From positions 1 through 64,000 of the forward strand of contig JAJDXS010000010.1 in NCBI GenBank assembly GCA_022823145.1: a DNA stretch of 64,000 nucleotides, written 5' to 3'. Below the pieces are notes generated by a model that was not told the DNA's origin, did not search any database, and saw nothing but the letters and a program-made list of their open reading frames with translations. Shown here piece by piece: positions 35,210 through 57,032 of this stretch (the stretch's first letter is position 1; every line of letters begins with the position of its first letter). Position numbers and translations under genes: made by a program. Source of the DNA: Gemmatimonadota bacterium (lineage in GTDB: Bacteria; Gemmatimonadota; Gemmatimonadetes; Longimicrobiales; Gaopeijiaceae).

Positions 35210-36715
35210 ATGCGCAGCTTCCCGTTTACTGCCGCTCTCGTGGCGACCGCCGCACTCACTTCCATGCCCCCACAGCCGGCCGCTACCCAGTCCCAACCAG
35301 CCATTGCCATCGTCGGGGCGACCATCATCGACGGAAACGGCGGCCCGCCCCTCACCGACGGCACACTCGTCACCCGGGGCGACCGCATCGCCGCCGTCGG
35401 CCCGCGCGCGTCGGTCGAAATCCCCGAGGGCGCCACCGTCATCGACGGCGCCGGCAGGTACGTGACCCCCGGATTCATCGACACCAACGTGCACCTGTCG
35501 CTGTATTCCGGTCACGAAACGCTTGTCCGCTACGAGGACCGGAACGCCGCGCTGACTCTCGAGGCGGCCCAGATGCAGCTCAAGCACGGGTTCACGACGG
35601 TGCGCGACAGCTACGGATCGCTGCTCCCGCTCATGGAGATCCGCGACGCCATCGCGCGTGGCGACACCATCGGCCCGCGCATGCTGGTGGCCGGCAACAT
35701 CGTGGGCTGGGGCGGTCCGTACACGGTCTCGTTCTCGCTGATCCGGCCGCAGGGGCTGACGCTCTTCCAGGAGCAGTTCAACGACTTCATCACGCAGGGG
35801 TCGGGCGAGGAATGGATGGAGATGGAGCCCGAGGACCTGCGCGTCGCGGTCAACCGGTACCTCGACCTGGGACCCGACTTCCTCAAGTACGGCGGCACCG
35901 GCCACTTCTCCAATCCGGTCATGATCGGGTTCTCGCCGGCGGCCCAGCGCGTGTTGGTCGAGGAGACACGGAAGCGCGGGCTGATTGCCGAAACGCACTC
36001 CACTTCGCCCGAAGGCTTACGGATGTCGGTGGAAGCGGGCCTCGACCTGATCCAGCACCCCGAGGTGCTCACCGCCGAAATGTCCGACGCGCTGGTCAGG
36101 GAGATTGCGGACCGCGGAATCGTCTGCTCCATGCTGACCAACACGATCACCGGCAAGGTGTGGCAGGAGCACGTGGAATCGCGGGAGAAGGCGCTTGCGG
36201 GGGATGGGGGGGAGGATGAGAACCGCCGTGACGGCCTGGCGAAGACATCGGTCGAACTGCGGGCCGAGCGCCGCGCGGCGGGCGAATCCATGGAGATCCG
36301 GCGCCGCAACGCGGAGAAGCTGATCGCGGGGGGCTGTATCTCCACGATCGGGACGGACAACTACCTCGGCGCGGCCCCCGAATTCAGGCGCGAGAAGAAG
36401 GCCGAGAACCAGTCGTTCGGCATCGGGAGCGTGATCGCCACCGAGGGGCTTGTCGAACTCGGCATGACCCCGATGGAGGCGATCACCGCGGTTACGCGCA
36501 ACGGCGCAATCGCGAGCGGGATGCTCGACATACTCGGCACCCTCGAAGCCGGCAAGTACGCCGACGTGCTCGTGCTCGACGCCGATCCACTGGCGGACAT
36601 CGGCAACATCCGGGCACTCGGAGTGGTTGTCCGGGACGGGAAGATCGTGGATCTGGACACGCTGCCGTACGAGAGGATCTTCTCGTCTCCGGGAAAGGGT
36701 CACGCGTGGGAGTGA
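35210..36715 (+). CDS. Secreted amidohydrolase
   Basis: IAIVGATIIDGNGGPPLTDGTLVTRGDRIAAVGPRASVEIPEGATVIDGAGRYVTPGFIDTNVHL; GTLEAGKYADVLVLDADPLADI; RBS AGGAGG. Confidence 0.9.
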   Translation: MRSFPFTAALVATAALTSMPPQPAATQSQPAIAIVGATIIDGNGGPPLTDGTLVTRGDRIAAVGPRASVEIPEGATVIDGAGRYVTPGFIDTNVHLSLYSGHETLVRYEDRNAALTLEAAQMQLKHGFTTVRDSYGSLLPLMEIRDAIARGDTIGPRMLVAGNIVGWGGPYTVSFSLIRPQGLTLFQEQFNDFITQGSGEEWMEMEPEDLRVAVNRYLDLGPDFLKYGGTGHFSNPVMIGFSPAAQRVLVEETRKRGLIAETHSTSPEGLRMSVEAGLDLIQHPEVLTAEMSDALVREIADRGIVCSMLTNTITGKVWQEHVESREKALAGDGGEDENRRDGLAKTSVELRAERRAAGESMEIRRRNAEKLIAGGCISTIGTDNYLGAAPEFRREKKAENQSFGIGSVIATEGLVELGMTPMEAITAVTRNGAIASGMLDILGTLEAGKYADVLVLDADPLADIGNIRALGVVVRDGKIVDLDTLPYERIFSSPGKGHAWE

Positions 36716-36842
36716 AGGATCCCGGGCGGTGCGAGTACACCTGCCTGCGTCCGGGGTTACTGTTGATAGGGGCCCGACCAGCCCTTTGGGGGCCGCCCCC
36801 GGGGCGACTCCCGTGGAACCTCTCGGCACCAAGGGGGATGCA

Positions 36843-38003
36843 ATGCCTGGACCCGCGCCGTGGCGGGACCGACTCGCCTTCGCCGCGCTGGCCCTGATCG
36901 CCCCGGCCGTCACGCTACCGGCCCTCACCACCGCCTGCGGGGGCGACGAACCGACGGAGCCCCCCGTCGCTACCACCGTCAGCATCTCGCCGGCCTCCGT
37001 GGACATGTCATCGTTCGGTGAGACGGCCCAGTTGACCGCCACCGTCCTTGACCAGAACGGCCAGCCGATCGCTGGCGCCTCCGTCAACTGGACCATCGAC
37101 GACAATTCCGTCGCGACCGTGAGCACAGGGGGGCTGGTAACCGCCGTCCAGAACGGGAGCGCCACCGTGACCGCCACCTCCGGCGGGGCATCGGGGACCG
37201 TAGCCGTGACCGTCGCCCAGCGGCCCGCACGGATCGAGGTATCCCCGTCCGCGGACACCCTGGTTGCCATCGGCGACACCGTGCAGCTGGCCGCGCAGCC
37301 GTTGGACGCCAACGGCAACGACGTGCCGGGCGTGACCATCGGGTGGTCGTCGGCGGACGAGGGAGTCGCCACCGTCGATGCCAACGGGCTGGTCACCGCG
37401 GCCGGGAACGGCACCGCGAACATCACCGCGTCGGCGGGCGGCGCCACCGGAGCCGCCGCGGTAACCGTCTCCCAGGTGATCGTCGGGATGGACGTGCTGC
37501 CGGCCGCGACCACATTGTTCTCGCTCGGCGACACCGTCCGGCTGGTCGCAGCGGGTGTCGACGCCAACGGCCACCCCGGCTCGGCCCTACGAGTCACGTG
37601 GATGTCGGAAGACGACGCCGTCGCAGCCGTCGATACGACCGGGCTGGTCACGGCGGTGCGCACCGGCAGCACGGACGTATTCGCAACCTTCGGAGAACTG
37701 CGCGATTCCGCCGGGGTGTCGGTCACTCAGCTCGCGTCGGAGGTGCGGGTGACTCCGGCCGTCGACACGCTGGGTGCGGTCGGCGACACCGTCCACCTGA
37801 GCGCCGTGGCGCTGGACAGGAACGGACACGAGGTGGAGGACACCGACTACATCTGGTCCGCGCCCCACCCCTGGGTGGTGACCGTAGACGACAGCGGACT
37901 GGTCACGGCCAGGGGGCCCGGCACGGGCGAGATCCGCGTCAAGGCGACACGGGCCGGAGCGAACTACATCGGCGTTGCCACCATCACGGTGGTCGAATCC
38001 TGA
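36843..38003 (+). CDS. Lipoprotein with four BIG2 Ig-like repeats
   Basis: LTTACGGDEPTEP lipobox; four repeats of (ISPASVDMSSFGETAQLTATVLDQNG...VATVSTGGLVTAVQNGSATVTATSGG). Confidence 0.85.
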   Translation: MPGPAPWRDRLAFAALALIAPAVTLPALTTACGGDEPTEPPVATTVSISPASVDMSSFGETAQLTATVLDQNGQPIAGASVNWTIDDNSVATVSTGGLVTAVQNGSATVTATSGGASGTVAVTVAQRPARIEVSPSADTLVAIGDTVQLAAQPLDANGNDVPGVTIGWSSADEGVATVDANGLVTAAGNGTANITASAGGATGAAAVTVSQVIVGMDVLPAATTLFSLGDTVRLVAAGVDANGHPGSALRVTWMSEDDAVAAVDTTGLVTAVRTGSTDVFATFGELRDSAGVSVTQLASEVRVTPAVDTLGAVGDTVHLSAVALDRNGHEVEDTDYIWSAPHPWVVTVDDSGLVTARGPGTGEIRVKATRAGANYIGVATITVVES

Positions 38004-38911: not shown

Positions 38912-41740
38912 CTACCGCTGTTCCATCCAGATGTCCTCCAGCACCCGCACCGTCTGCGTGTATTCCTGACCGTCCACCGTCAGCGTCACGCGGTACAGCC
39001 CCGGCTCCGCCATCGGGCCCTGGCCACCGCCGCCGAACTGGAAGCCGCCGCCCGGCGGCCCCTCGCGACGATTCCCGCGCAGGTTCCACCGCACCCTGTT
39101 GATCCCGCTGTTGCCGATCGGCTCCAGGTCCCGGAACAGCTCGCCCGTGGCCAGATCCGTCACCGTCAGCTGCACATCGCCCGACGCCTCGCGCAGCCAG
39201 TAGTGGATCGCGGTTCCCGGCGGCGCGTTCTCGCCGCGCAGCACCTTGTCCCCGGTGATCGATCGGGACTTGCGCGGGTCCTGTTTCCACCGCACGGCCT
39301 CCCTCGGCTCGAAGAGGAAGACGTCCTCGGCCATCACTTCGTCGGTCAGGTGCTGCAGGGGCGTCACATCGTCGGCGATCAGGACGCTGCGCCCGTGCGT
39401 CGCGAGCACAAGGTCACCGTCGCGCGGATGCACGACGACGTCGTCGATGCGTACGACCGGCAGTCCGCTCATGAACGGCCGCCAGGTGCCGCCCTCGTCC
39501 AGTGAGACGAAGAACCCGAACTCGGTTCCCGCGTACAGCAGACGCGCGTTGCGCGGGTCCTGGCGCACCGTGTTGACGTTCCCGTACTCCGGCAGGTTGG
39601 ACGTGATGTCCTCCCAGCTTTCGCCATAGTCACGCGTCACGTACACGTATGGCCGCAGGTCGTCACTCTTGTGACCGTCCACCGATGCATAGGCTGTCCC
39701 GGCATCGAAGTGCGACGCCTCGACGCGCGACACGTAGTAGCCTTTCGTGCCTCCGGGGATGTTCCGGCCGACCTCGGTCCACGTCGCGCCACCGTCGCGG
39801 CTTACCTGGAGGTTCCCGTCGTCGGTGCCCACCCACAACAGGCCGGGCACCAGCGGCGACTCCGCCACCGAGATGCCGGTGCTGAAGGCGCTCACACCGT
39901 CGTTGCGCGACAGGATGCATTCCTCGCCGCGGTCCATCCGGTTGCAGCGGGGCAGGCTGTTCGCCTGGCCCATGACCTCGACGCGGTCGCGGTCGAGGTT
40001 CGTGGTCAAATCCTCGCTCATCGTCCACGTGTCGCCCCGGTCCATCGATCGGAAGAGCCGGTTGCCGGCGGCATAGATCACGTCGGGGTTGTGCGGCGAG
40101 AGAATGAACGGCGTGTTCCAGTTCCAGCGGATCGGGCTGTTCACCTCGGGCGTGGGCACGATGTTCGAAGCCGGCCGGTTGTCCGTCGGCGCCCGCGGGC
40201 GGATGCTGCCGCCCTGCCCGGTCGCCAGGCTCAGCCGCCGGAGGTTGCCGTTCTGCGACTCGGCGTACACGACCGTGTGGTCGGTGGGGTCCACGGCCGT
40301 GTAGAAGCCATCGCCGCCGCCGACGCGGTACCAGTCCTCGCTGAGCACGTCGCCGCCCCGAATGCCGCTCGGGCCGCACCAGCTTCCGTTGTCCTGCAGG
40401 CCGGTGCACACGTAGTAGGGACGGCGCATGTCCACCGACGCGTGGTACGGCTGCCCCATGGCCCAGCGTCGGTGCGATTCCCAGGTCTCGCCCCGGTCGT
40501 AGCTCACGTCGACCCCACCGTCGTTGCCGATCAACACGTGGTTGCTGTTGGCCGGATTGATCCACATGGCGTGCTGATCGACGTGCCCGTACCCGTCTAG
40601 CCGCTCGAACGTCCGGGCGCCGTCCACGGACTTGTGCACGCGCTGGTCGACCACGTACACGGTCTCCGGATCGTTCGGATCGACGCGGATCTGGCTGAAG
40701 TACATCGGCCGCCCGTTTTCGTTGCTGCGGAATTCCCAGGACGCGCCTCCGTCGGTCGAACGCCAGATCCCGTTGTACTGGTCGTCGGGGGGCAGGGGCT
40801 CGTCGCGGTCGTCGAGGGCGTCGAGCTCGGCCCGCTCCTCCTGCGTGAGCGGCTCCTCGCGGTCCGCCGCGACCTCGATTTGCGCGTAAACGACGTCCGG
40901 ATCGGCCGGTGTCACCGCCAGTGCAACGCGTCCCATGGTTCCGCGGGGCAGCCCGTTGCCGCTGAGCCGCGTCCACGTCTCCCCACCGTCGTCGGAGCGC
41001 CAGATGCCGCTGCCGGGCCCTCCGCCGACGAAGCAGCAGCGGGTGCGCCGCCGCTGGTAGGTGGCCGCAAAGAGGGTGTTGGGGTTGGTGGGATGAAGGA
41101 CCAGGTCCGTCGCGCCGGTGTCGTCGTCCACGCTGAGCACGTGGTTCCAGGTGCGGCCCCCGTCGGTGGTCTTGAAGACGCCGCGTTCGGGGTTGGCCCC
41201 GAAGAGGTGCCCGTTGGCCGCTGCCCACGCCACGTCCGCATCGTCCGGGTGCGCGATCACCCGCGAAATCGTCTGGGTCTGGCGCAGCCCCACGTGTGTG
41301 AACGTCTCGCCGCCGTCGGTGGACTTGTACATGCCGTCGCCGAACGACGAGCTCTGCCGATTGTTGGCCTCGCCCGTCCCGACCCAGACGATGTCGGGGT
41401 TGGCCGACGAGATCGCGATGTCCCCCACGGAGTGCGTGCCGTAGCTGTCGAAGACGGGCCGGAAGGTCGTGCCGTTGTTCGTGGTCTTCCAGAGCCCGCC
41501 CGTCGCGAAGCCGGCGAAGTAAGTGTGGGGGTCCGCCGGGTGGACCGCGAGGTCATTCACCCGGCCGCCCTGTCCATACGGTCCGATCTGCCGCCATGAG
41601 AACGCCCGGAGGATGGGGTCGTCGCTCTGGTTCACCAAAGGCTCTTCGGCCTCCTGGGCGATTGCGGCGCGGGGCGTGAGGGCGATGGCGGCGAGGAGCG
41701 TGAGCGCGAAGGCGGCGGGGGTGACGCGGACGGCGTACAT
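38912..41740 (-). CDS. Secreted BNR/sortilin (VPS10)-like beta-propeller protein
   Basis: Signal peptide; repeated Asp-box-like KSTDGGETFTHVG, KTTDGGRTWNHV, RSDDGGETWTRL, RSTDGGASWEF. Confidence 0.85.
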   Translation of the reverse strand: MYAVRVTPAAFALTLLAAIALTPRAAIAQEAEEPLVNQSDDPILRAFSWRQIGPYGQGGRVNDLAVHPADPHTYFAGFATGGLWKTTNNGTTFRPVFDSYGTHSVGDIAISSANPDIVWVGTGEANNRQSSSFGDGMYKSTDGGETFTHVGLRQTQTISRVIAHPDDADVAWAAANGHLFGANPERGVFKTTDGGRTWNHVLSVDDDTGATDLVLHPTNPNTLFAATYQRRRTRCCFVGGGPGSGIWRSDDGGETWTRLSGNGLPRGTMGRVALAVTPADPDVVYAQIEVAADREEPLTQEERAELDALDDRDEPLPPDDQYNGIWRSTDGGASWEFRSNENGRPMYFSQIRVDPNDPETVYVVDQRVHKSVDGARTFERLDGYGHVDQHAMWINPANSNHVLIGNDGGVDVSYDRGETWESHRRWAMGQPYHASVDMRRPYYVCTGLQDNGSWCGPSGIRGGDVLSEDWYRVGGGDGFYTAVDPTDHTVVYAESQNGNLRRLSLATGQGGSIRPRAPTDNRPASNIVPTPEVNSPIRWNWNTPFILSPHNPDVIYAAGNRLFRSMDRGDTWTMSEDLTTNLDRDRVEVMGQANSLPRCNRMDRGEECILSRNDGVSAFSTGISVAESPLVPGLLWVGTDDGNLQVSRDGGATWTEVGRNIPGGTKGYYVSRVEASHFDAGTAYASVDGHKSDDLRPYVYVTRDYGESWEDITSNLPEYGNVNTVRQDPRNARLLYAGTEFGFFVSLDEGGTWRPFMSGLPVVRIDDVVVHPRDGDLVLATHGRSVLIADDVTPLQHLTDEVMAEDVFLFEPREAVRWKQDPRKSRSITGDKVLRGENAPPGTAIHYWLREASGDVQLTVTDLATGELFRDLEPIGNSGINRVRWNLRGNRREGPPGGGFQFGGGGQGPMAEPGLYRVTLTVDGQEYTQTVRVLEDIWMEQR

Positions 41741-41887
41741 GGGAACCTCTCGGACCTGATGGTGACAAGCTGCTGATGCCGGGAGGTAGTGTAGATCGGT
41801 CGCGGTCGCTTCGCCATTGCGAGCAGCCATGCTTGTGGTGCCCGACGGGTCTCAGGACGCAGGAAGAAGTACCGTTGTGAATGATGT

Positions 41888-42896: not shown

Positions 42897-45038
42897 CTAC
42901 CGCATCATCGCTGCTACCGTCCGCATCCGCTCCGCAAGGTCACCGATCGCGTTCACATACACGCGCTCCCAGCCCGGCAGGTCGGCGCGGTCGTCGGTCT
43001 CGATTTCGTAGCGCAGCCCCGGCAGCATCCACGACGCGTAGCCGCTGAACGGATCCGGTGACACGTAAATCGAGCGGCTCCACGGGCGTCCCTGCAGCCC
43101 GCGGTCGTTCAGCCACGCCTTCTCCAGCCCGATCAGTGCCCGGTTCACGGCTTCGGCGGCTTCGGGGTCGACGTCACCGGATCGGATCCAACGGTCCCGG
43201 GCGGCCACGAGTTCGGCGGCCGCCTCGTCCAGTTCGCGGCTCGCCTCGACCAGAGCCGAGAGGTCCACTTCGAGTCGGCGCGAATCGGCGACGCGGTACA
43301 GGGTCTCCACATGCGTCCGGGTGTCCGTGGCGTAGCGTGCTGCGTCGTAGGGCAGCAGGTCGGCGTTGGCGAAGCGCAGAGCCAGGATCCCGTCAACGCG
43401 GGCGACCATCGGCCCGTAGACGAACGTGCTGTCCCCGAAGCGCTCGTACCAGGCGAAGTTGTCGTAGTTCGAGTGGTAGACGCCGCTGGGGTTGCCGGAG
43501 GAAAGGCCCGCCGAGGGCACGCCGGCGTGGGTGTAGAAGGCGACGTGGTCCGACCCGCCGCCGAGGTTGCCGAGTGCCGGCTCGTCGGTGCCGGCGGGTG
43601 CCCGTTCGAACCACCAGTCGTAGAGTGGCTCGCCGGTTTCGGGGTAGGTGACCGCCTTCGTCGCCTCGAGAATCTGCCCTTTGAGCGACGGCGACGACGA
43701 CCCCCCGAAGTTGGACCCGGAGACCGCCGCGTCGGCGTTGATGTAGGCGATTGCGTTGGCTTCCAGCTCGTCCCTGAACTCCTCCACCCACTCGGTGGAC
43801 CCGATGATTCCGTATTCCTCGGCGTCCCAGTGGGCGATCATGATCGAGCGGCGGGGAGCGCACTCGCCGTCCTGCACCAGTTCGCCCAGCGCCTCGGCGA
43901 GGGTGAGGAGCATGGCCGTGCCGCCGTTGGGGTCGATCGCCCCGAATCCCCACGGGTCGTAGTGCGCGCCCAGGATGAACCACTCGTCGGGGAACTCGGT
44001 GCCTCGCACGGTGCCGACCACGTTGGTCGCGCGTGTCAGCCGCTTGGGCTGGTTGACGCGCACGCGTACGGTGAGGTCCGGGCCGCCGGTCAGGCGGTGG
44101 TCCAGCTCCATCCCGGTGTCCCATCCGGGCGGAACCTCGCTGCCCTTCATGCGCGACAGGATCTCGCTCGCCGCCTCGTAGCCGACGGGCAGCACGGGGA
44201 TGGTGTGGAGGGGGACTTCGGACGGATCGAGGCGCTCGACCTGTACGTCCCCGTCGATGGGCAGGGCGGGGATGAATGGGGTCAGCGGGTCGCCGGTCCA
44301 CGGGAGGGTCAGAACGGAGCCCCGCTGAATCGTCTGCCCGTTCATCATCGGGCCTTCCGGGTAGGCGTCGAGTTGCGAGAATCCGGGGTCGTTGAACATG
44401 ACCACGCCAGCCGCGCCGCGCTCTTCGGCGAACTTGACCTTGTAGCCGCGGAAGTTCCCCCCGTAGCGGGCGATCACGACCTTGCCGGCGACGGAAACGC
44501 CCATCGAGTCGAGCGCCAGGTAGTCCTCGCGGCGCCCGAAGTTGGCGTAGACGACTTCCCCGGTCACGTCGCCCGACCCGGAGAAGGCATTCCAGCCGTT
44601 GAGCAGGTCGGGGTGGCCCGAGAAGCGGTCGTCGGGGAGCGCGGGTTCGCGGTTGGAGAGCTGCATCGCGACGGGTGTGACGATGTGGACCTCGACGTCG
44701 TCGGTGAGCTCGGGGAGGTACACGTCGTAGGGATGACTGGTGACCTCCAGGCCCGCGCGTTCCATGGCTTCGGCGATGTACTCCCCGACGCGCGCCTGTG
44801 CGGCGGAACCCGCCGGATGGGGCTCCGCGGTGACCGTGCGGAGGTGCTCGCGGAAGGACTCGCTGCGCGGCAGTTCGAGGAAACGGGCCTCGCAGGCCAG
44901 TTGCCATTCGGCGCGGTCGCCGGTGAAGCCGGTCAGGGCGGGCTCCTGGGGCAGCGCAAAGGCAAGGACCGCGACGAGTGTCAGCAGTGATCCGAGGACG
45001 GTGAGCGATCTGGCGGGACCGGCGAGGGGTAGGCGCAT
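42897..45038 (-). CDS. M28B glutamate carboxypeptidase II/PSMA-like peptidase
   Basis: DEWFILGAHYDPWGFGAIDPNGGTAMLLTLAEALG; IMIAHWDAEEYGIIGSTEWVEEF; LGGGSDHVAFYTHAGVPSAGL; C-terminal dimerisation-like region. Confidence 0.9.
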   Translation of the reverse strand: MRLPLAGPARSLTVLGSLLTLVAVLAFALPQEPALTGFTGDRAEWQLACEARFLELPRSESFREHLRTVTAEPHPAGSAAQARVGEYIAEAMERAGLEVTSHPYDVYLPELTDDVEVHIVTPVAMQLSNREPALPDDRFSGHPDLLNGWNAFSGSGDVTGEVVYANFGRREDYLALDSMGVSVAGKVVIARYGGNFRGYKVKFAEERGAAGVVMFNDPGFSQLDAYPEGPMMNGQTIQRGSVLTLPWTGDPLTPFIPALPIDGDVQVERLDPSEVPLHTIPVLPVGYEAASEILSRMKGSEVPPGWDTGMELDHRLTGGPDLTVRVRVNQPKRLTRATNVVGTVRGTEFPDEWFILGAHYDPWGFGAIDPNGGTAMLLTLAEALGELVQDGECAPRRSIMIAHWDAEEYGIIGSTEWVEEFRDELEANAIAYINADAAVSGSNFGGSSSPSLKGQILEATKAVTYPETGEPLYDWWFERAPAGTDEPALGNLGGGSDHVAFYTHAGVPSAGLSSGNPSGVYHSNYDNFAWYERFGDSTFVYGPMVARVDGILALRFANADLLPYDAARYATDTRTHVETLYRVADSRRLEVDLSALVEASRELDEAAAELVAARDRWIRSGDVDPEAAEAVNRALIGLEKAWLNDRGLQGRPWSRSIYVSPDPFSGYASWMLPGLRYEIETDDRADLPGWERVYVNAIGDLAERMRTVAAMMR

Positions 45039-45167
45039 GAGTGGGGCCGTTTGCGTGGGTGGTGACGTGGGCGTGGTGGGTATATGCCGCCGTGACACGG
45101 TTCGCGCTAGCTTTCGCAGTGCGCGCGATGCCGGCGCCGGACCTGAAAGACCCGATGTGAAGTTAGC

Positions 45168-46472
45168 ATGAAGCAATATCGATTATCCGCCTGTCCTGCG
45201 CGCGAGCGACTCGCCGGAACCGCATCCAGCCTGGCCCCGTGCCTCCTCGTAGTGGCTCTCGCTGCGCTTGCCGCCTGCCTCGACGAGGAGGGGCTCCCCG
45301 AAATCGAGCCGTCGCGCCCCACCGCGATCACGGTCACGCCGTCCTCGGCGACGCTGTCCTCCCTGGGCGAGACCGCGACGTTCAGGGCGCAGATCACGGA
45401 CCAGAACGGGGTCTCGTACCCCGGGACGGTCACGTGGTCGAGCAGCGACATGGGCGTCTTCACCGTGGCTTCGGGCGTGGTCACCGCCGCCGCGAACGGT
45501 TCGGGGACGTTGACCGCGTCGTACGAGAGCATCAGCGGTACGGCATCGGTGACGGTCCGACAGGTTCCGGCCTCGGTTTCGGTGATTTCGGGCGGCAGCC
45601 AGCAGGGGATGGCTGGCCGGCAGCTCGCCGAGACGGTCGTGGTACGCGTGGACGACGCCGGCGGTTCGGCCGTCGAGGGGGTCACGGTGACGTTTTCGGC
45701 CGCCGAGGGCCATGGTGCGGCCGATCCGGGCATGGCCGTGACCGATTCCGAAGGGCTGGCAGCGACATCCTGGACCCTGGGCAGCGTACCGGGGGTGCAG
45801 ACCCTGACCGCATCGGCTGCGGACGGGGTCTCCGCGGAGATCAGCGCCGCAGTCGGCGAGATCGAACCTGCATCGGACACCGCGCTCTATAGCGTCACCT
45901 TCAGCGCGACGTGGAGCGCGCAGACGCACCCGACCGATTTTCCGTCGGGCAGCCAACATTTCTCGCCCCTCATCGGCGCCGTTCACAACGAAAGCGTGAC
46001 TTTCTGGGCGTCGGGCGACACCGCCTCCCCGGGCATCGAGCAGATGGCCGAGACGGGCGGGACCGGTTCGCTTACGCGCGAGATCCGGGACGAAATACCG
46101 GGCGATGTCATCTCCGTCATCAACGGCCGCCAACTCGGAACCAGTCCCGCGAGCACGACTATCAGTGAAGTTCTCGTCACACTCGATCACCCGCGCATCA
46201 CGCTCGTTACGATGATCGCCCCCAGTCCGGACTGGTTCGTGGGGGTAGCGGGCCAATCGCTGCAGAACGAGTTCGGGCAGTGGCTCGACGAGGTGGCGGT
46301 CGTGCTCTATCCATACGATTCCGGCACGGACGATGGCACGTCGTACCGTTCGGCGAATGCGGATTCGTCGCCCAGGCAGCCGATCAGGAGCCTAAGGGGG
46401 GTGAGTCCATTCTCGGACGAGCCGATCGGCACCTACACCTTCACGAGAATCGACGCCGGCGGGAGCCGGTGA
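45168..46472 (+). CDS. Lipoprotein: BIG-type Ig domains + C-terminal Spondin_N domain
   Basis: LAALAACLDEEGLP lipobox; Ig repeats; YSVTFSATWSAQTHPTDFPSGSQHFSPLIGAVHNESVTFWASGDTASPGIEQMAETGGTGSL...APSPDWFVGVAGQSL...VVLYPYDSGTDDGTSY. Confidence 0.8.
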   Translation: MKQYRLSACPARERLAGTASSLAPCLLVVALAALAACLDEEGLPEIEPSRPTAITVTPSSATLSSLGETATFRAQITDQNGVSYPGTVTWSSSDMGVFTVASGVVTAAANGSGTLTASYESISGTASVTVRQVPASVSVISGGSQQGMAGRQLAETVVVRVDDAGGSAVEGVTVTFSAAEGHGAADPGMAVTDSEGLAATSWTLGSVPGVQTLTASAADGVSAEISAAVGEIEPASDTALYSVTFSATWSAQTHPTDFPSGSQHFSPLIGAVHNESVTFWASGDTASPGIEQMAETGGTGSLTREIRDEIPGDVISVINGRQLGTSPASTTISEVLVTLDHPRITLVTMIAPSPDWFVGVAGQSLQNEFGQWLDEVAVVLYPYDSGTDDGTSYRSANADSSPRQPIRSLRGVSPFSDEPIGTYTFTRIDAGGSR

Positions 46473-46503: not shown

Positions 46504-48333
46504 ATGCAGCTGCGCAACATCGCGATCATCGCGCACGTGGATCACGGCAAGACGACGCTGGTGGACCAGATGTTCCGGCAGGCCGGGGTCTTTCGGGCGG
46601 GACAGGAGGTGGTGGAGAGGGTGCTGGATTCGAACCCGTTGGAACGCGAGCGCGGAATCACGATCCTGGCCAAGAACACCGCGGTGGAGTGGGGACACAC
46701 CAAGATCAACATCGTCGACACGCCTGGTCACGCGGACTTCGGCGGCGAGGTCGAGCGCATTCTGCGCATGGTCGACGGCGTGCTCCTCCTGGTGGACGCC
46801 GCCGAGGGGCCGATGCCGCAGACGCGCTTCGTCACGCGCAAGGCGCTGGCGCTCGGGCTGGTGCCGGTGATCGTGATCAACAAGGTGGACCGCTCGGACG
46901 CGCGCCCGGACGAGGTGCACGACGAGGTGCTGGAGCTGCTGATGGACCTGGAGGCCAGCGACGAGCAACTCGACGCGCCCTTCCTCTACGGGGTGGGACG
47001 GGAGGGCTGGGTCACGGGGGAACCCGGCGTGCGCGGGGAGGACCTGACGCCGCTCTTCGAGGCGGTGGTCGACCACATCCCGGCGCCGCCGGTCGACCCG
47101 GAAGGACCGTTCCAGATGCTGGTGTCGACGCTGGACCACTCGGCCTACGTCGGGCGGATCGCGATCGGGCGGGTGGAGCGGGGTGGGGTGAGGGTGGGGC
47201 AGAGGGTGTTGCGGGTGTCGGCGAATGCCACCGACGCGGACCCCCAGGAAGCAACGCGAGTGATCGGCCTCTACACCTTCAACGGCCTCGATCGCGTCGA
47301 TATCGAGGAAGCCGGCGCCGGCGACATCATCGGGCTGGCCGGGAGCGACGGTGTCGAAATCGGCGACACGCTGACGGATCCGCGCCATCCGGAGCGGCTG
47401 AGCGGGATTACGGTGGAGGAGCCAACGATCTCGGTGGACTTCGTGGTGAACGATTCCCCGTTTTCGGGGCGGTCCGGGAAGTACGTGACCACCCGGCAGC
47501 TGCGGGACCGGTTGCGGCGGGAGCTGGAGCGCAACGTGGCGCTGCGGGTCGAGGCGACGGACCGTCCCGACACCTTCGCGGTGAGCGGCCGCGGCGAACT
47601 GCACCTGACGATACTGATGGAGACGATGCGGCGCGAAGGCTACGAGTTCCAGGTGTCGCGTCCACGCGTGATTACGCGTCAGGCTGGCAACGGGACGCGT
47701 CTTGAGCCCTTCGAGGAAGTCGTGGCAGAGGTCCCGTCGGGGCTCTCCGGGACGGTGATCGACAAGCTCGCCCGCCGCCGGGGCGAACTGGTCTCGATGA
47801 AGCCGGTGGGCGACTCGGGAACGACCCGCCTCGAGTTCAGCGTTCCCGCGCGGGGGCTCTTCGGTTACCGCACCGAGTTCCTCACCGACACCAGGGGCGA
47901 AGGCGTCCTACATCACCGATTCGACCGGTGGAACGCGTGGGCGGGCGAGATTCGCGGGCGCGGGCGCGGGGCGATGGTCGCGGACCGGGCGGGCAAGGCG
48001 GTGAGCTTCGCCATCTTCGGGCTGCAGGAACGGGGCACGATGTTCGTGGAGCCCGGGCTGGACTGCTACGGCGGCATGATCGTGGGCAAGTGCGCCCGTC
48101 CCGGCGACATGGACGTGAACATCGGCCGCACCAAGAAGCTCACCAATATGCGCGCGGCCGCAGCCGACGAGAACGTGCGCCTCGAGCCGCCGCTGCGCAT
48201 GACGCTGGAACAGGCACTCGACTTCATCGACGACGATGAACTGATCGAGGTCACCCCGGACGCGATCCGGCTCCGGAAGCGGGAGCTGGACGCGAGCAGG
48301 CGGCGAAAGGCGGCGCGGACAAGGCGCTTGTGA
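46504..48333 (+). CDS. typA: GTP-binding protein TypA/BipA
   Basis: [62 protein letters not shown]-terminal [44 protein letters not shown]. Confidence 0.97.
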
Positions 48334-52368: not shown

Positions 52369-55296
52369 CTAGAAGCTGAGGCGGACGGTGGTGAGGAATT
52401 CGAACGGATGGGGTACGGAATTGAAGGCGGGCTGGTACACGCTGTTTCCACCGAAGACCACGGCGAGTTCAGGCTCGGGACTGCGGTCGTAGTCGGTGAA
52501 GGTGTAGAGGTTCCGCGCGGACACGGTGACGGTGGCACCGGAGCCCCCGATGTTGCGTGCCCAGGATTCGGGCACGTGGTAGGTCGCCGCCACCTGCCGG
52601 AACTTGGCAAAGCTGGTTTCGGGCGTGACGTAGGGGCCGAAGACGAACTGGGCCATCTCGCCGGCTGCGGCCGGGTTGGAAGCGGGATCGATATTGGGCT
52701 CGCACAACCTGAGGATCGTGCACTGGATGGCGAGGTCGGCGCTGAAGATGCTCTGGCCGATCTTGAAGTCGAGGAGCCCGCTGATCGTCAGCCGGTTCCA
52801 GAGGGTGATGTCGGAGGTGATCGCTCCCTCGTACTCGGGCAGGACCTGTCCGATGTACAGCCGGTCGGCTTCGGCGCAGGGCACGGTGGGGCCGCCCTGC
52901 CGGCCGTCGATGCCGGCGTCGCACATGAGGTCGATCACCGCCCCGGTGGTGGGATCGACCGAGGAGCTCACGGTGACCTTCTCGAAGTATGCGCTCACGG
53001 GGAAGCCGACGCGGTGGTACTGGTTGACCGGGCCGGCGATCTCGTCGCCGATTCCGAGGTGGAGGATCTCGTTGGTGTTCCGGGCGAACGAAACGCCGAC
53101 GTTCCAGCGCAGGAAGTCGGTTTCCACGGGCAACCCGCTGAGGAAGACCTCGTAACCGGTGTTCTGGATCTCGCCGAGATTGACGAACTGGTTCGCGATG
53201 AAGCCGCTCGAGGGTGCCACGGGCTTGGCCACGATCGCGTCCCTGGCGCGCTTGTCGTACCAGGTGAACTCAAGGTTCAGGCGGTCGTCGAGGGCGCTTG
53301 CGTCGAAGCCCAGTTCGACCTCGGTGCCGCGTTCCGGTCCCAGGTCCGGGTTGCCCACGAACTGCGGCCGTACTGCGGCGCCGCCGCCGGGACCGGTGAT
53401 GGGCTGATAGGACCGAAGGGCTGCGAAGGCGTCGGGCTGCTGGCCGGATTGGCCGAAGGCGCCACGGACCCGGAACGTCCCGATCGTGCTGGCGGGCCAG
53501 AACGACTCCTCGCTGAGGACCCAGGTGCCGCTCACCTTCGGGTAGACCACGGCTTCGAAGTCGCGTCCGAAGGCCGAGTTGTCGTCGATGCGGAACGCCA
53601 CGGTCAGGTAGGCCCGGTCGTTGAACCCGACCTGCTGTTGCAGGAAACCGCCGAAGGTGATGTTCTCGACGAAGTTCTCCGTGCCGCTCTGAACCGCCGC
53701 GCTGGAGATTGTGGTGATACCGGGAGCGGGGAACTGCTGTCCCGAGATCGTCGCAACCTTCTCGTACTTCCGGAAATACTGGACCCCGAACGAAGTCGTG
53801 GAGCTGAGGGACTCGGTGATGTCGGTCGTCGCAGTCGACGCGTAGTCCACCGTCGTCGTGGTCCGGTCGCGAGTGTTGACGGTCTTCGACCCGAGGATGG
53901 CGTTGGGGCCGAAGAACACGGCCAGGGAGTCGGGCAGCCGCGGCACCAGGGTGTTGGCCTCCTCGTTGACCTCGTCGATGCCGACGCTGAACCGCTGGGT
54001 CAGCCAGGAAGTCGGCCGGTGCTCCAGCCGGATCCCCGAGGTGAAGCGCGAGACGTCCTCGGTCTGGTGGTAGGCGGCCCGCAGTGCCTCGGGCGGGGCC
54101 ACGAGAAAGCCACGGTTGGGGGTGTCCAGCTGGTAGGGCGAGGGATTGAAGGGTCCTCGCAGCAGTTCGTGGTAGGGGACTTCGATGCTGGACGAGACGT
54201 ACGCGGCGTTGGCGGCGATGGTCAGATTCTCGCTGGCGGTGGCCTCGAAGTTGGCGCGACCGTTCCACCGGTCCGCCACGTTGGGCTCCATGATCCCTTC
54301 CTGGGAGTCGAAGGACCCCGTGACGAAGTAGCGAAAGACGTCCGTGCCTCCCGCCACCTCCATCCCGTAGCGCTGCGTCTGTCCGGTGCGGAAGAGCGGG
54401 CGTCCCTCCTCCTCCTCCTTTTGCACGAGATTGAGCGTCGAGACCTCGCCCGACGGCAGGTAGTAGTAGCTCTTCGTGCTCTCGAACTTCTCGGCGACGT
54501 TGAGGATCTTCGACATTCCCCGGCTGGCGAACGCCGTAAAGCGCGCGGCCCCGGGCGTCCCCTTCTTGGTGAAGATCTGGATGACGCCGTTCGAGGCCTC
54601 GGTGCCGTACAGGGTGGCGGCCGCCGGTCCCTTGATGACCTCGATCGACTCGATGCTGTTGGGATCGATGTCGTTGAGCCGCGATGTGGGGCCCCAGCTG
54701 AATCCCCGGCCCGTCTCGTTGTCCACGCGGACCCCGTCCACGTAGATCAGCGGTTCGTTGTTCAGCGAGATGCTGTTCGTCCCTCGGATGCGAATGCGGC
54801 CGCCGCCTCCCGCGACCCCCTGGCTCGCCTGGAACACGACGCCGGGGGCGCGCGCGTTGAGCATGGTGCTGAGGTCCAGCGACGGCGTGAGCAGCTGCTG
54901 GTCGGCCGCGTTGATGGTGGCGACGGCGTTGCCGATCGAACGGCGCTCGGTCGCGATCGACTGACCGGTGACCACGATTTCGTCCAGCGCGATGGCCGAT
55001 TCGCCCATGACCACTCTGAGCCCGACCGTCCCGACCTGTGTGGTGACGGACTGCGTGCGGTATCCGATGAGATCGAACTGCAACGTCACTTCCGTGCCGG
55101 AGAGTCCTGCCAGTTCGAAACGCCCGTCCGCGTTGGTCACGGTCGACAATCCCTCGCCGGCGGTGACAAAGACATCGGCCAGCCCGGCCAGCGAGCGCCC
55201 GGACACGACCGTTCCGGTGACGGTGCCTGTCTGGGCGTGCCCTGCGACCGGAATGGTCAACACGAGGAGCAGCCCCGCGAGTGCGAGTCTGGCCAT
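52369..55296 (-). CDS. SusC/RagA-like TonB-dependent outer-membrane protein
   Basis: GTVVSGRSLAGLADVFVTAGEGLSTVTNADGRFELAGL; GGGGRIRIRGTNSISLNNEPLIYVDGVRVDNE; SIEVIKGPAAATLYGTEASNGVIQIFTKKG. Confidence 0.93.
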   Translation of the reverse strand: MARLALAGLLLVLTIPVAGHAQTGTVTGTVVSGRSLAGLADVFVTAGEGLSTVTNADGRFELAGLSGTEVTLQFDLIGYRTQSVTTQVGTVGLRVVMGESAIALDEIVVTGQSIATERRSIGNAVATINAADQQLLTPSLDLSTMLNARAPGVVFQASQGVAGGGGRIRIRGTNSISLNNEPLIYVDGVRVDNETGRGFSWGPTSRLNDIDPNSIESIEVIKGPAAATLYGTEASNGVIQIFTKKGTPGAARFTAFASRGMSKILNVAEKFESTKSYYYLPSGEVSTLNLVQKEEEEGRPLFRTGQTQRYGMEVAGGTDVFRYFVTGSFDSQEGIMEPNVADRWNGRANFEATASENLTIAANAAYVSSSIEVPYHELLRGPFNPSPYQLDTPNRGFLVAPPEALRAAYHQTEDVSRFTSGIRLEHRPTSWLTQRFSVGIDEVNEEANTLVPRLPDSLAVFFGPNAILGSKTVNTRDRTTTTVDYASTATTDITESLSSTTSFGVQYFRKYEKVATISGQQFPAPGITTISSAAVQSGTENFVENITFGGFLQQQVGFNDRAYLTVAFRIDDNSAFGRDFEAVVYPKVSGTWVLSEESFWPASTIGTFRVRGAFGQSGQQPDAFAALRSYQPITGPGGGAAVRPQFVGNPDLGPERGTEVELGFDASALDDRLNLEFTWYDKRARDAIVAKPVAPSSGFIANQFVNLGEIQNTGYEVFLSGLPVETDFLRWNVGVSFARNTNEILHLGIGDEIAGPVNQYHRVGFPVSAYFEKVTVSSSVDPTTGAVIDLMCDAGIDGRQGGPTVPCAEADRLYIGQVLPEYEGAITSDITLWNRLTISGLLDFKIGQSIFSADLAIQCTILRLCEPNIDPASNPAAAGEMAQFVFGPYVTPETSFAKFRQVAATYHVPESWARNIGGSGATVTVSARNLYTFTDYDRSPEPELAVVFGGNSVYQPAFNSVPHPFEFLTTVRLSF

Positions 55297-55457
55297 GGGA
55301 TCCTCCTTCCAGATGTGAATCAGCTACGATCGTTTTCGATCATTGTACACATATGTGGACGCGACACCGGAGGCAAATCGGGTCCGGCAATCGCGGTCAC
55401 GGATGCGGCCGATCCTCACTCTCGCCCGGCTCCGGGCGATCCGGTAACTTCCGCACC

Positions 55458-57032
55458 ATGAGCCAACACACCCACCCCACCCGGCGCCCCACCGTCCCCG
55501 CCGCCGAAGAGATCCTGGGCGGCTACTTCCCCGTGCTCGACCACGGCTTCGTCGCGCTGGTCGACTACATGGGGACCGACGATTCGGTGGAGCGGGCGGC
55601 CCGCGTCAGCTATGGGTACGGCACGCGGAAGGTCTCGGCGACGCGCGGGCTGATCCGGTACCTGCGCCGGCACCTGCATACGACCCCGTCCGAGATGGTC
55701 GAGTTCAAGTTCCACTGCGCGATGCCGATGTTCGTGGCGCGCCAGTGGATACGGCATCGGACGGCCTGTCTGGCCGAAGGCACCGAAGTCTACTTCGACT
55801 TGCCGGGTGCCGAGGCGAGGGGGCGTCGCAAGCTGTACAAGCTGCCCATCGGGGAGATCTGGCGACGCTTCCAGCCGACTCGCAACAAGCGTTCGGACAA
55901 GCAGCGCAATCCACTCTTTCGCCGCGACCGCGTCAAGCGAATGAGGCTGAGACAAGTCGACGAAAACACGCTCGCTTTACAGCACACGCGCGTCGTGGAT
56001 GTCTACCGAAATGGTGTGAAGCCGGTCTTCCGGATGGTGCTCGAAGACGGCAAGTCGATCGAGGCGACGGCGGATCACCGGTTTCTGTTTGCCGGGGGCT
56101 GGGACACGCTACGGGGGGCCACCGAGGTGCGGGAGACACGCGGACGCGCGGTTTGGCGGCATGCTGACTACTTCGTGCACGTGAATGGGGCCGCGGAGAA
56201 GCTGCATCGGGACCAGTTGCGCTACAGCACCAAACTCGTCCGCGTCGCCCGCTTCGAGTACGTGGGCAAACGCGAGACCTACGACCTCGAGGTGGAGGGT
56301 CCTCACCACAACTTCGTCGCCAACGGCATCGTGACGCACAACTCCGTGAACGAATACAGCGGCAGGTACAGCCTGATGCCGCTCCTCTTCTACAGCCCCG
56401 AGCAGGACCAGTTCTCGCTGCAGAGTGCGACAAGCAACCAGGGGCGCGCGCCGGGGTCCGTCAGCCCCGAGTTCTACCGCGAAGCGATGCGCCGGTGGGA
56501 GGACGTGCGGTCGCGCGCCGCGGACGACTACGGCTGGCTGGTCGGCGAAAACGTGGCCCGCGAGTTGGCCCGCATCGACCTGCCGCTCTCCACCTACACG
56601 CAGTGGTACTGGAAGATTGACCTGCACAACCTGCTGCACTTCCTCACGCTGCGCGTCGACGACCACGCCCAGTGGGAGATCCAGGAATACGGCCGGGTCA
56701 TGGCGGGGATGGTCAAGCGCGTCGCTCCCCTCAGCTACGAGGCGTGGATCGATTACCAGGTCATGGGCGACAAGCTGTCCGGGGGCGAGATCGCCGCGTT
56801 GTCGCGGCTGGTGTCGGTCGACGCGGATGGGTTGGCCGCGCGCGGCGGTGCCGGGCTGACGAATGCCGAACTCGCCGGGCTGGGCCTGTCGGGCCGCGAG
56901 ATCCGCGAGCTCAAGGAGAAGCTCGTGCTGCGCGAGGTGCCGGACTACGACCTCGACCTGACGCAGATGCGCGATCCGCAGGCCGTGGCGGCCGAAATGG
57001 ACAAGGCCGTGCCGGAGGTCGACAGGGGCTGA
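55458..57032 (+). CDS. thyX: Flavin-dependent thymidylate synthase ThyX, intein-interrupted
   Basis: MVEFKFHCAMPMFVARQWIRHRTA | intein | SVNEYSGRYSLMP; exteins join to RHRTASVNEYSGRYS, the ThyX motif. Confidence 0.95.
   Translation: MSQHTHPTRRPTVPAAEEILGGYFPVLDHGFVALVDYMGTDDSVERAARVSYGYGTRKVSATRGLIRYLRRHLHTTPSEMVEFKFHCAMPMFVARQWIRHRTACLAEGTEVYFDLPGAEARGRRKLYKLPIGEIWRRFQPTRNKRSDKQRNPLFRRDRVKRMRLRQVDENTLALQHTRVVDVYRNGVKPVFRMVLEDGKSIEATADHRFLFAGGWDTLRGATEVRETRGRAVWRHADYFVHVNGAAEKLHRDQLRYSTKLVRVARFEYVGKRETYDLEVEGPHHNFVANGIVTHNSVNEYSGRYSLMPLLFYSPEQDQFSLQSATSNQGRAPGSVSPEFYREAMRRWEDVRSRAADDYGWLVGENVARELARIDLPLSTYTQWYWKIDLHNLLHFLTLRVDDHAQWEIQEYGRVMAGMVKRVAPLSYEAWIDYQVMGDKLSGGEIAALSRLVSVDADGLAARGGAGLTNAELAGLGLSGREIRELKEKLVLREVPDYDLDLTQMRDPQAVAAEMDKAVPEVDRG
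55767..56342 (+). other. Mini-intein (192 aa) within thyX
   Basis: Cys1 CLAEGTEVYF (block A), EATADHRFLFAGG (block B TxxH), YDLEVEGPHHNFVANGIVTHN (F/G) followed by Ser+1. Confidence 0.93.

Follow-up and report, generated by a model that had tools for sequence, protein, structure and literature searches.

Sponges maintain a stable bacterial community that they do not digest, and how they do so is an open question. In the sections of two papers drawn on here (PMC9531527, PMC8163846), animal-type domains are enriched in sponge symbionts, and Spondin_N is not among the eukaryotic-like classes that those sections name; a search of the open literature gave nothing relevant on Spondin_N in sponge symbionts. 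The domain itself has been described in human F-spondin, where D325, D354, and D358 of the PSPDW and DAGTD motifs coordinate Ca2+, and the published identity between the human F-spondin and mindin domains is 35.9% (PMC3117680). Here we describe a Spondin_N lipoprotein gene from a 64,000-nucleotide stretch of Gemmatimonadota DNA, referred to as the window; the coordinates of its features are collected in Table 1.

Table 1. Features of the Spondin_N lipoprotein gene and its neighbors, in window positions
Feature	Positions	Strand	Basis
Gene for a 434-aa lipoprotein with a signal peptide, a pair of Ig-like domains, and Spondin_N at the C terminus	45168..46472	+	
Type II signal peptide, residues 1–36	45168..45275	+	Read from sequence
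Lipobox L34-A35-A36 (LAAC, residues 34–37, followed by LDEE); predicted lipidated Cys37	45276–45278 (Cys37)	+	Sequence
Acidic stretch C-L-D-E-E after cysteine	45276..45290	+	Sequence only
Ig-like domain 1, about residues 51–130	45318..45557	+	AlphaFold model; Big_2 match in orthologue L052
Ig-like domain 2, Big_1 (Pfam residues 149–225, above cut-off)	45573..45854	+	Pfam; model
Spondin_N (F-spondin) domain; Pfam residues 239–414, last strand about 421–427	45882..46469	+	Pfam, NCBIfam, PDB, Foldseek
PSPDW motif, predicted Ca2+ ligand D355 (= D325 of human F-spondin)	46221..46235	+	Alignment; PMC3117680
DSGTD motif, predicted Ca2+ ligands D384, D388 (= D354, D358 of human F-spondin)	46317..46331	+	Alignment; PMC3117680
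Upstream, divergently oriented M28 peptidase carrying PA and TFR-dimer domains	42897..45176	−	
bipA/typA translation GTPase, 31 bp downstream	46504..48333	+	Conserved neighbor

The reading frame is a genuine gene as judged by its normal codon-position GC, and it evolves under purifying selection (dN/dS 0.13–0.22 against the three orthologues L043–L045). Its C-terminal domain matched Pfam PF06468 (Spond_N) at 165.1 bits (cut-off 24; E 2.7e-48; model positions 1–177 of 194) and the NCBIfam model NF038123, "spondin domain-containing," at 93.9 bits (cut-off 40), in agreement with the C-terminal Spondin_N domain proposed by the first-pass annotation. The only PDB sequences matched by the domain were human Spondin-1 (E 2e-31; 35% identity) and Spondin-2 (E 1.7e-25; 32% identity), and 14 well-known control genomes gave no Spondin_N match.

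Structure prediction led to the same family. The AlphaFold model, built from 56 aligned sequences (mean pLDDT 92.3, pTM 0.69), folds the domain into a C2-like sandwich of eight strands, two helices (254–262 and 266–273, model numbering) lying between the second strand and the third. The three best-ranked Foldseek matches were all FS domains of mindin or F-spondin (E from 4e-18 to 2e-17; TM 0.76–0.86 on target), the best being mindin/Spondin-2 (3d34; E 4e-18, TM 0.86 on target), with Spondin-1 (3q13) at TM 0.76. In the alignment all three Ca2+ ligand residues are kept in the window protein (D355, D384, and D388). The D325- and D354-equivalent aspartates are invariant in 74 aligned bacterial domains and both human ones, an invariance that is partly biased in that part of the set was picked by a scan using these motifs; an HMM-selected set free of motif selection gave the same result, apart from one DAGSD. 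By residue correspondence, the window domain is predicted to bind Ca2+ and to act in a Ca2+-dependent manner. Cysteines are missing from nearly all bacterial Spondin_N domains.

Upstream of this domain, the protein has the build of an anchored stalk, and here the lipobox and the Ig-like spacers read by the first-pass annotation were both recovered. LAAC stands at residues 34–37, most orthologues have their lipobox at the same place, and lipidation at Cys37 is marked as predicted in Table 1. The acidic stretch after the cysteine resembles Bacteroidota surface-export signals and may direct the lipoprotein to the cell surface; we regard the protein as a putative surface-exposed outer-membrane lipoprotein. 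The second Ig-like domain matches Big_1, and the first, which in the window protein scores under the Pfam cut-offs, is visible in the structural model and coincides in position with a Big_2 match in orthologue L052. The domain order is thus BIG-BIG-Spondin_N, and the Ig part structurally resembles InvE, intimin, LigA, and S-layer structures in a Foldseek search with the AlphaFold model. An LRR block lies between the Ig-like domains and Spondin_N in L052 (BIG-BIG-LRR-Spondin_N; Pfam) and likewise, by sequence, in L054, L055, and L067. Elsewhere in the window, the frame at 36627–38003 (+) combines a lipobox-like TTAC motif with three Big_2 domains and has no recognizable terminal domain.

Spondin_N is not exotic in bacteria; the special feature is its distribution. 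Within the window's genus, every one of the 23 genomes has a full-length domain. Outside that genus, the window's family (121 genomes) has it in 10 of 11 genomes of genus g18, the sole exception being 67% complete, in one genome of g17, and in one of two of g40; the remaining genera gave weak partial matches only. In Palauibacteraceae, with habitats assigned per genus from the literature, the full domain was found in 14 of 17 Palauibacter genomes (genus g72) and in 0 of 18 genomes from six other genera, which, weak partial matches apart, have no Spondin_N; such lineage counts lack phylogenetic independence, and only a few clades underlie the contrasts. In Palauibacter's order, all sponge MAGs fall in one genus and the soil and sediment MAGs in eight others (PMC10469786). 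Across a phylum sample of 346 genomes, which is not habitat-labeled, 61 gave any Spond_N match, and several other genera outside the window's family also carry full-length copies. Weak partial matches occur phylum-wide (e.g., G274, G338, and G146) at model positions of about 27–151, with 24–43 bits, in proteins of about 260–360 aa, and are probably a distinct related family.

The traceable genomes of the window's genus are MAGs from sponge metagenomes. The jk18x relatives come from Caribbean Ircinia (PMC9531527), the RHO, COS, and CAR relatives are read as Rhopaloeides, Coscinoderma, and Carteriospongia (PMC8163846), and the 277c relative is from Petrosia ficiformis (PMC8941161). The SB06xx relatives are taken as sponge-derived because SB0661_bin_40 is Palauibacter, and the p16x, OX6383xx, bin94, and APA relatives are presumably from sponges as well. 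The first-pass annotation had tied its suggestion of adhesion to host association and had named homologues common only in free-living relatives as the outcome that would tell against it; the genus proves host-associated as far as it can be traced, and among close relatives that outcome did not occur.

Because the traceable same-genus relatives come from sponges, and among close relatives homologues are not confined to free-living bacteria, adhesion is plausible. Our preferred reading, with a probability of about one half, is a host-directed role at the cell surface, in adhesion within the sponge or recognition by it. For this role we count the domain and fold match, the ligand residues, the distribution and the traceable sponge sources, the fixed locus, purifying selection, and the secretion or anchoring parts and fusion partners present in bacterial Spondin_N proteins; against it we count the free-living carriers, the small number of clades behind the contrasts, and the lack of conservation at the mindin integrin motif and the F-spondin sulfate-binding arginines. 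The F-spondin domain, C2-like and predicted to bind Ca2+, would be kept at a distance from the cell by the lipid anchor and the two Ig-like domains. Its Ca2+-bearing top face would bind a ligand of the sponge mesohyl (a matrix glycan, a glycoprotein, or a membrane lipid), and the cell would then adhere in host tissue or be recognized as a resident. Both the ligand binding and a benefit in the host are inferred.

A possible alternative, at odds well short of even, is that Spondin_N serves as a general Ca2+-dependent module for polysaccharide or any extracellular matrix (the cell's own biofilm, detritus, or algal glycans), comparable to a CBM, with the sponge link reflecting a particle-rich marine life. 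Reference genomes contain at least 555 matching stretches across many phyla, and the domain is not specific to animal hosts because free-living bacteria such as Gilvibacter sediminis carry it too. In bacteria, Spondin_N proteins come with parts for secretion or anchoring, and their fusions, to cadherin-type repeats, LRR, GH5 with CBM, and subtilase, include partners that would suit such a module: L099 joins Spondin_N to a GH5 cellulase, CBM6/CBM35, and a T9SS tail; L077 to a subtilase with a P-domain and Calx-beta; and L079 to a glucose/sorbosone dehydrogenase. A module of general use fits poorly, however, with how sharply Palauibacter differs from its sister genera of sediment and soil, and with the universal presence of the domain in the window's genus.

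The window's genus also has a second Spondin_N type, found in ten genomes, in which the domain is N-terminal (complete frames) and the proteins mostly exceed 900 aa. L123 (661–5385, −) is very long and follows its N-terminal Spondin_N with Big_9, Cadherin_4, and Cadherin_5 repeats; L124 and L125 are also very long, with N-terminal Spondin_N and cadherin-like repeats. The C-terminal 400 aa of these cadherin-type proteins match no Pfam family and no PDB chain; their sequence pattern looks barrel-like, and they are at most a putative autotransporter barrel. In the tree, the second-form domains belong to a clade of 16 rows (support 100/99) that spans four phyla or more: besides Gemmatimonadota it holds Acidobacteriota, Alpha- and Gammaproteobacteria, Rhodothermales, and Aminicenantes, and L077, L079, L098, L104, L107, L118, and L122 are among its members. 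Most of the clade, which is drawn from the best 80 matches, carries sponge-project codes, four of them unconfirmed (L071, L079, L091, and L107), a pattern that suggests exchange of Spondin_N among sponge symbionts.

The Gemmatimonadota lipoprotein-type domains form a single clade of 25 rows (support 100/98). L051 and L069, recorded as Gammaproteobacteria, have their Spondin_N within it, and these labels look wrong. The animal side of the tree consisted of two human sequences, both long-branched, and AU tests neither rejected nor supported either placement tried for them (p 0.36, 0.31). The comparison of bacterial with metazoan domains proposed at first pass places the window sequence in a bacterial clade. 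Recent transfer from an animal is not supported, the closest sequences being all bacterial; with AU results that favor none of the tried placements and reject none, we claim no direction of animal–bacteria transfer. A phage or plasmid origin was rejected: viral contigs and phages gave nothing that matched the domain, and plasmids gave only Persicobacter.

We consider it improbable that the domain imitates the sponge's own spondin, engaging integrins or pattern-recognition pathways and lowering phagocytosis, although its identity to human Spondin-1 comes near that between F-spondin and mindin (PMC3117680) and such a mode of action has been suggested for other sponge-symbiont proteins of eukaryotic-like type (PMC9531527). 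The mindin integrin-binding triplet LEV is not kept in the alignment, where the window protein has VLV; its clade is bacterial, and the animal comparison consists of human sequences. In the same alignment, conservation is also lacking at the F-spondin arginines that bind sulfate, and the window protein ends after Spondin_N, the Pfam scan giving no thrombospondin type 1 repeats. With the domain widespread in bacteria, the matrix mimicry put forward in the first-pass annotation goes beyond the evidence.

The gene sits at one conserved locus, next to bipA in 20 of the 23 genomes of the window's genus, with tandem copies in G003, G014, G018, and G021; the copies of g18 and Palauibacter occupy different loci. 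The listed TTG start of the divergent M28 peptidase overlaps the lipoprotein gene, and a start near 45038 is likelier. An envelope or housekeeping lipoprotein that has no ligand outside the cell and is tied to one of its neighbors, bipA or the M28 peptidase, would account for the conserved locus but is very improbable, given that the related g18 and Palauibacter genes lack these neighbors and that most other genera in the family lack the gene. Also in the window, a Sortilin/VPS10-like BNR-repeat protein (38912–41830, −) adjoins the M28 peptidase, which itself has a transferrin-receptor-like dimerization domain, and thyX (thymidylate synthase complementing protein; 55281–57032, +) is split by an intein splicing domain.

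More broadly, and only tentatively, Spondin_N may be an unrecognized class of eukaryotic-like surface module of sponge symbionts, spread over several phyla partly by horizontal transfer, present in the window's genus in two forms (the lipoprotein and a giant cadherin-type stalk protein), and serving Ca2+-dependent attachment or recognition; animal F-spondin might share its ancestry. Under the sponge-directed reading, this conserved, probably extracellular Ca2+-binding domain of animal type, which uncultured symbiont genera have fixed and their sister genera of sediment and soil lack, makes a small and easily tested candidate for the means by which such symbionts attach to their sponge or are recognized by it. 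It would also offer a bacterial counterpart to animal F-spondin, and the ligand of that counterpart may show what the domain originally did.

The window protein can be compared with several known systems. Like the ankyrin, LRR, fn3, and cadherin proteins of sponge symbionts, it carries an animal-type domain, and some of its orthologues also have LRR; unlike other eukaryotic-like symbiont proteins, it is predicted to be extracellular, not injected. It passes the NF038123 cut-off, and known members of that family are likewise secreted or surface proteins, whereas the type described here is a BIG-BIG-Spondin_N lipoprotein fixed in one sponge-associated genus. With human Spondin-1 (3Q13) and mindin/Spondin-2 (3D34) it has in common the fold, PSPDW, D-x-G-T-D, the Ca2+ ligand residues, and the top aromatic W215; in contrast to both, its domain is without disulfides, the N-glycosylation site, and the integrin LEV, and it is a bacterial lipoprotein with Ig-like spacers in place of thrombospondin or reelin domains. 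Finally, Pfam and the model give it an Ig-like stalk and a terminal domain, and the stalk, structurally similar to the BIG-domain adhesins (intimin, invasin-type InvE, and Leptospira LigA), could display a ligand-binding tip at the cell surface; it differs from them in having a lipid anchor, not an intimin barrel, and an F-spondin domain at its tip.
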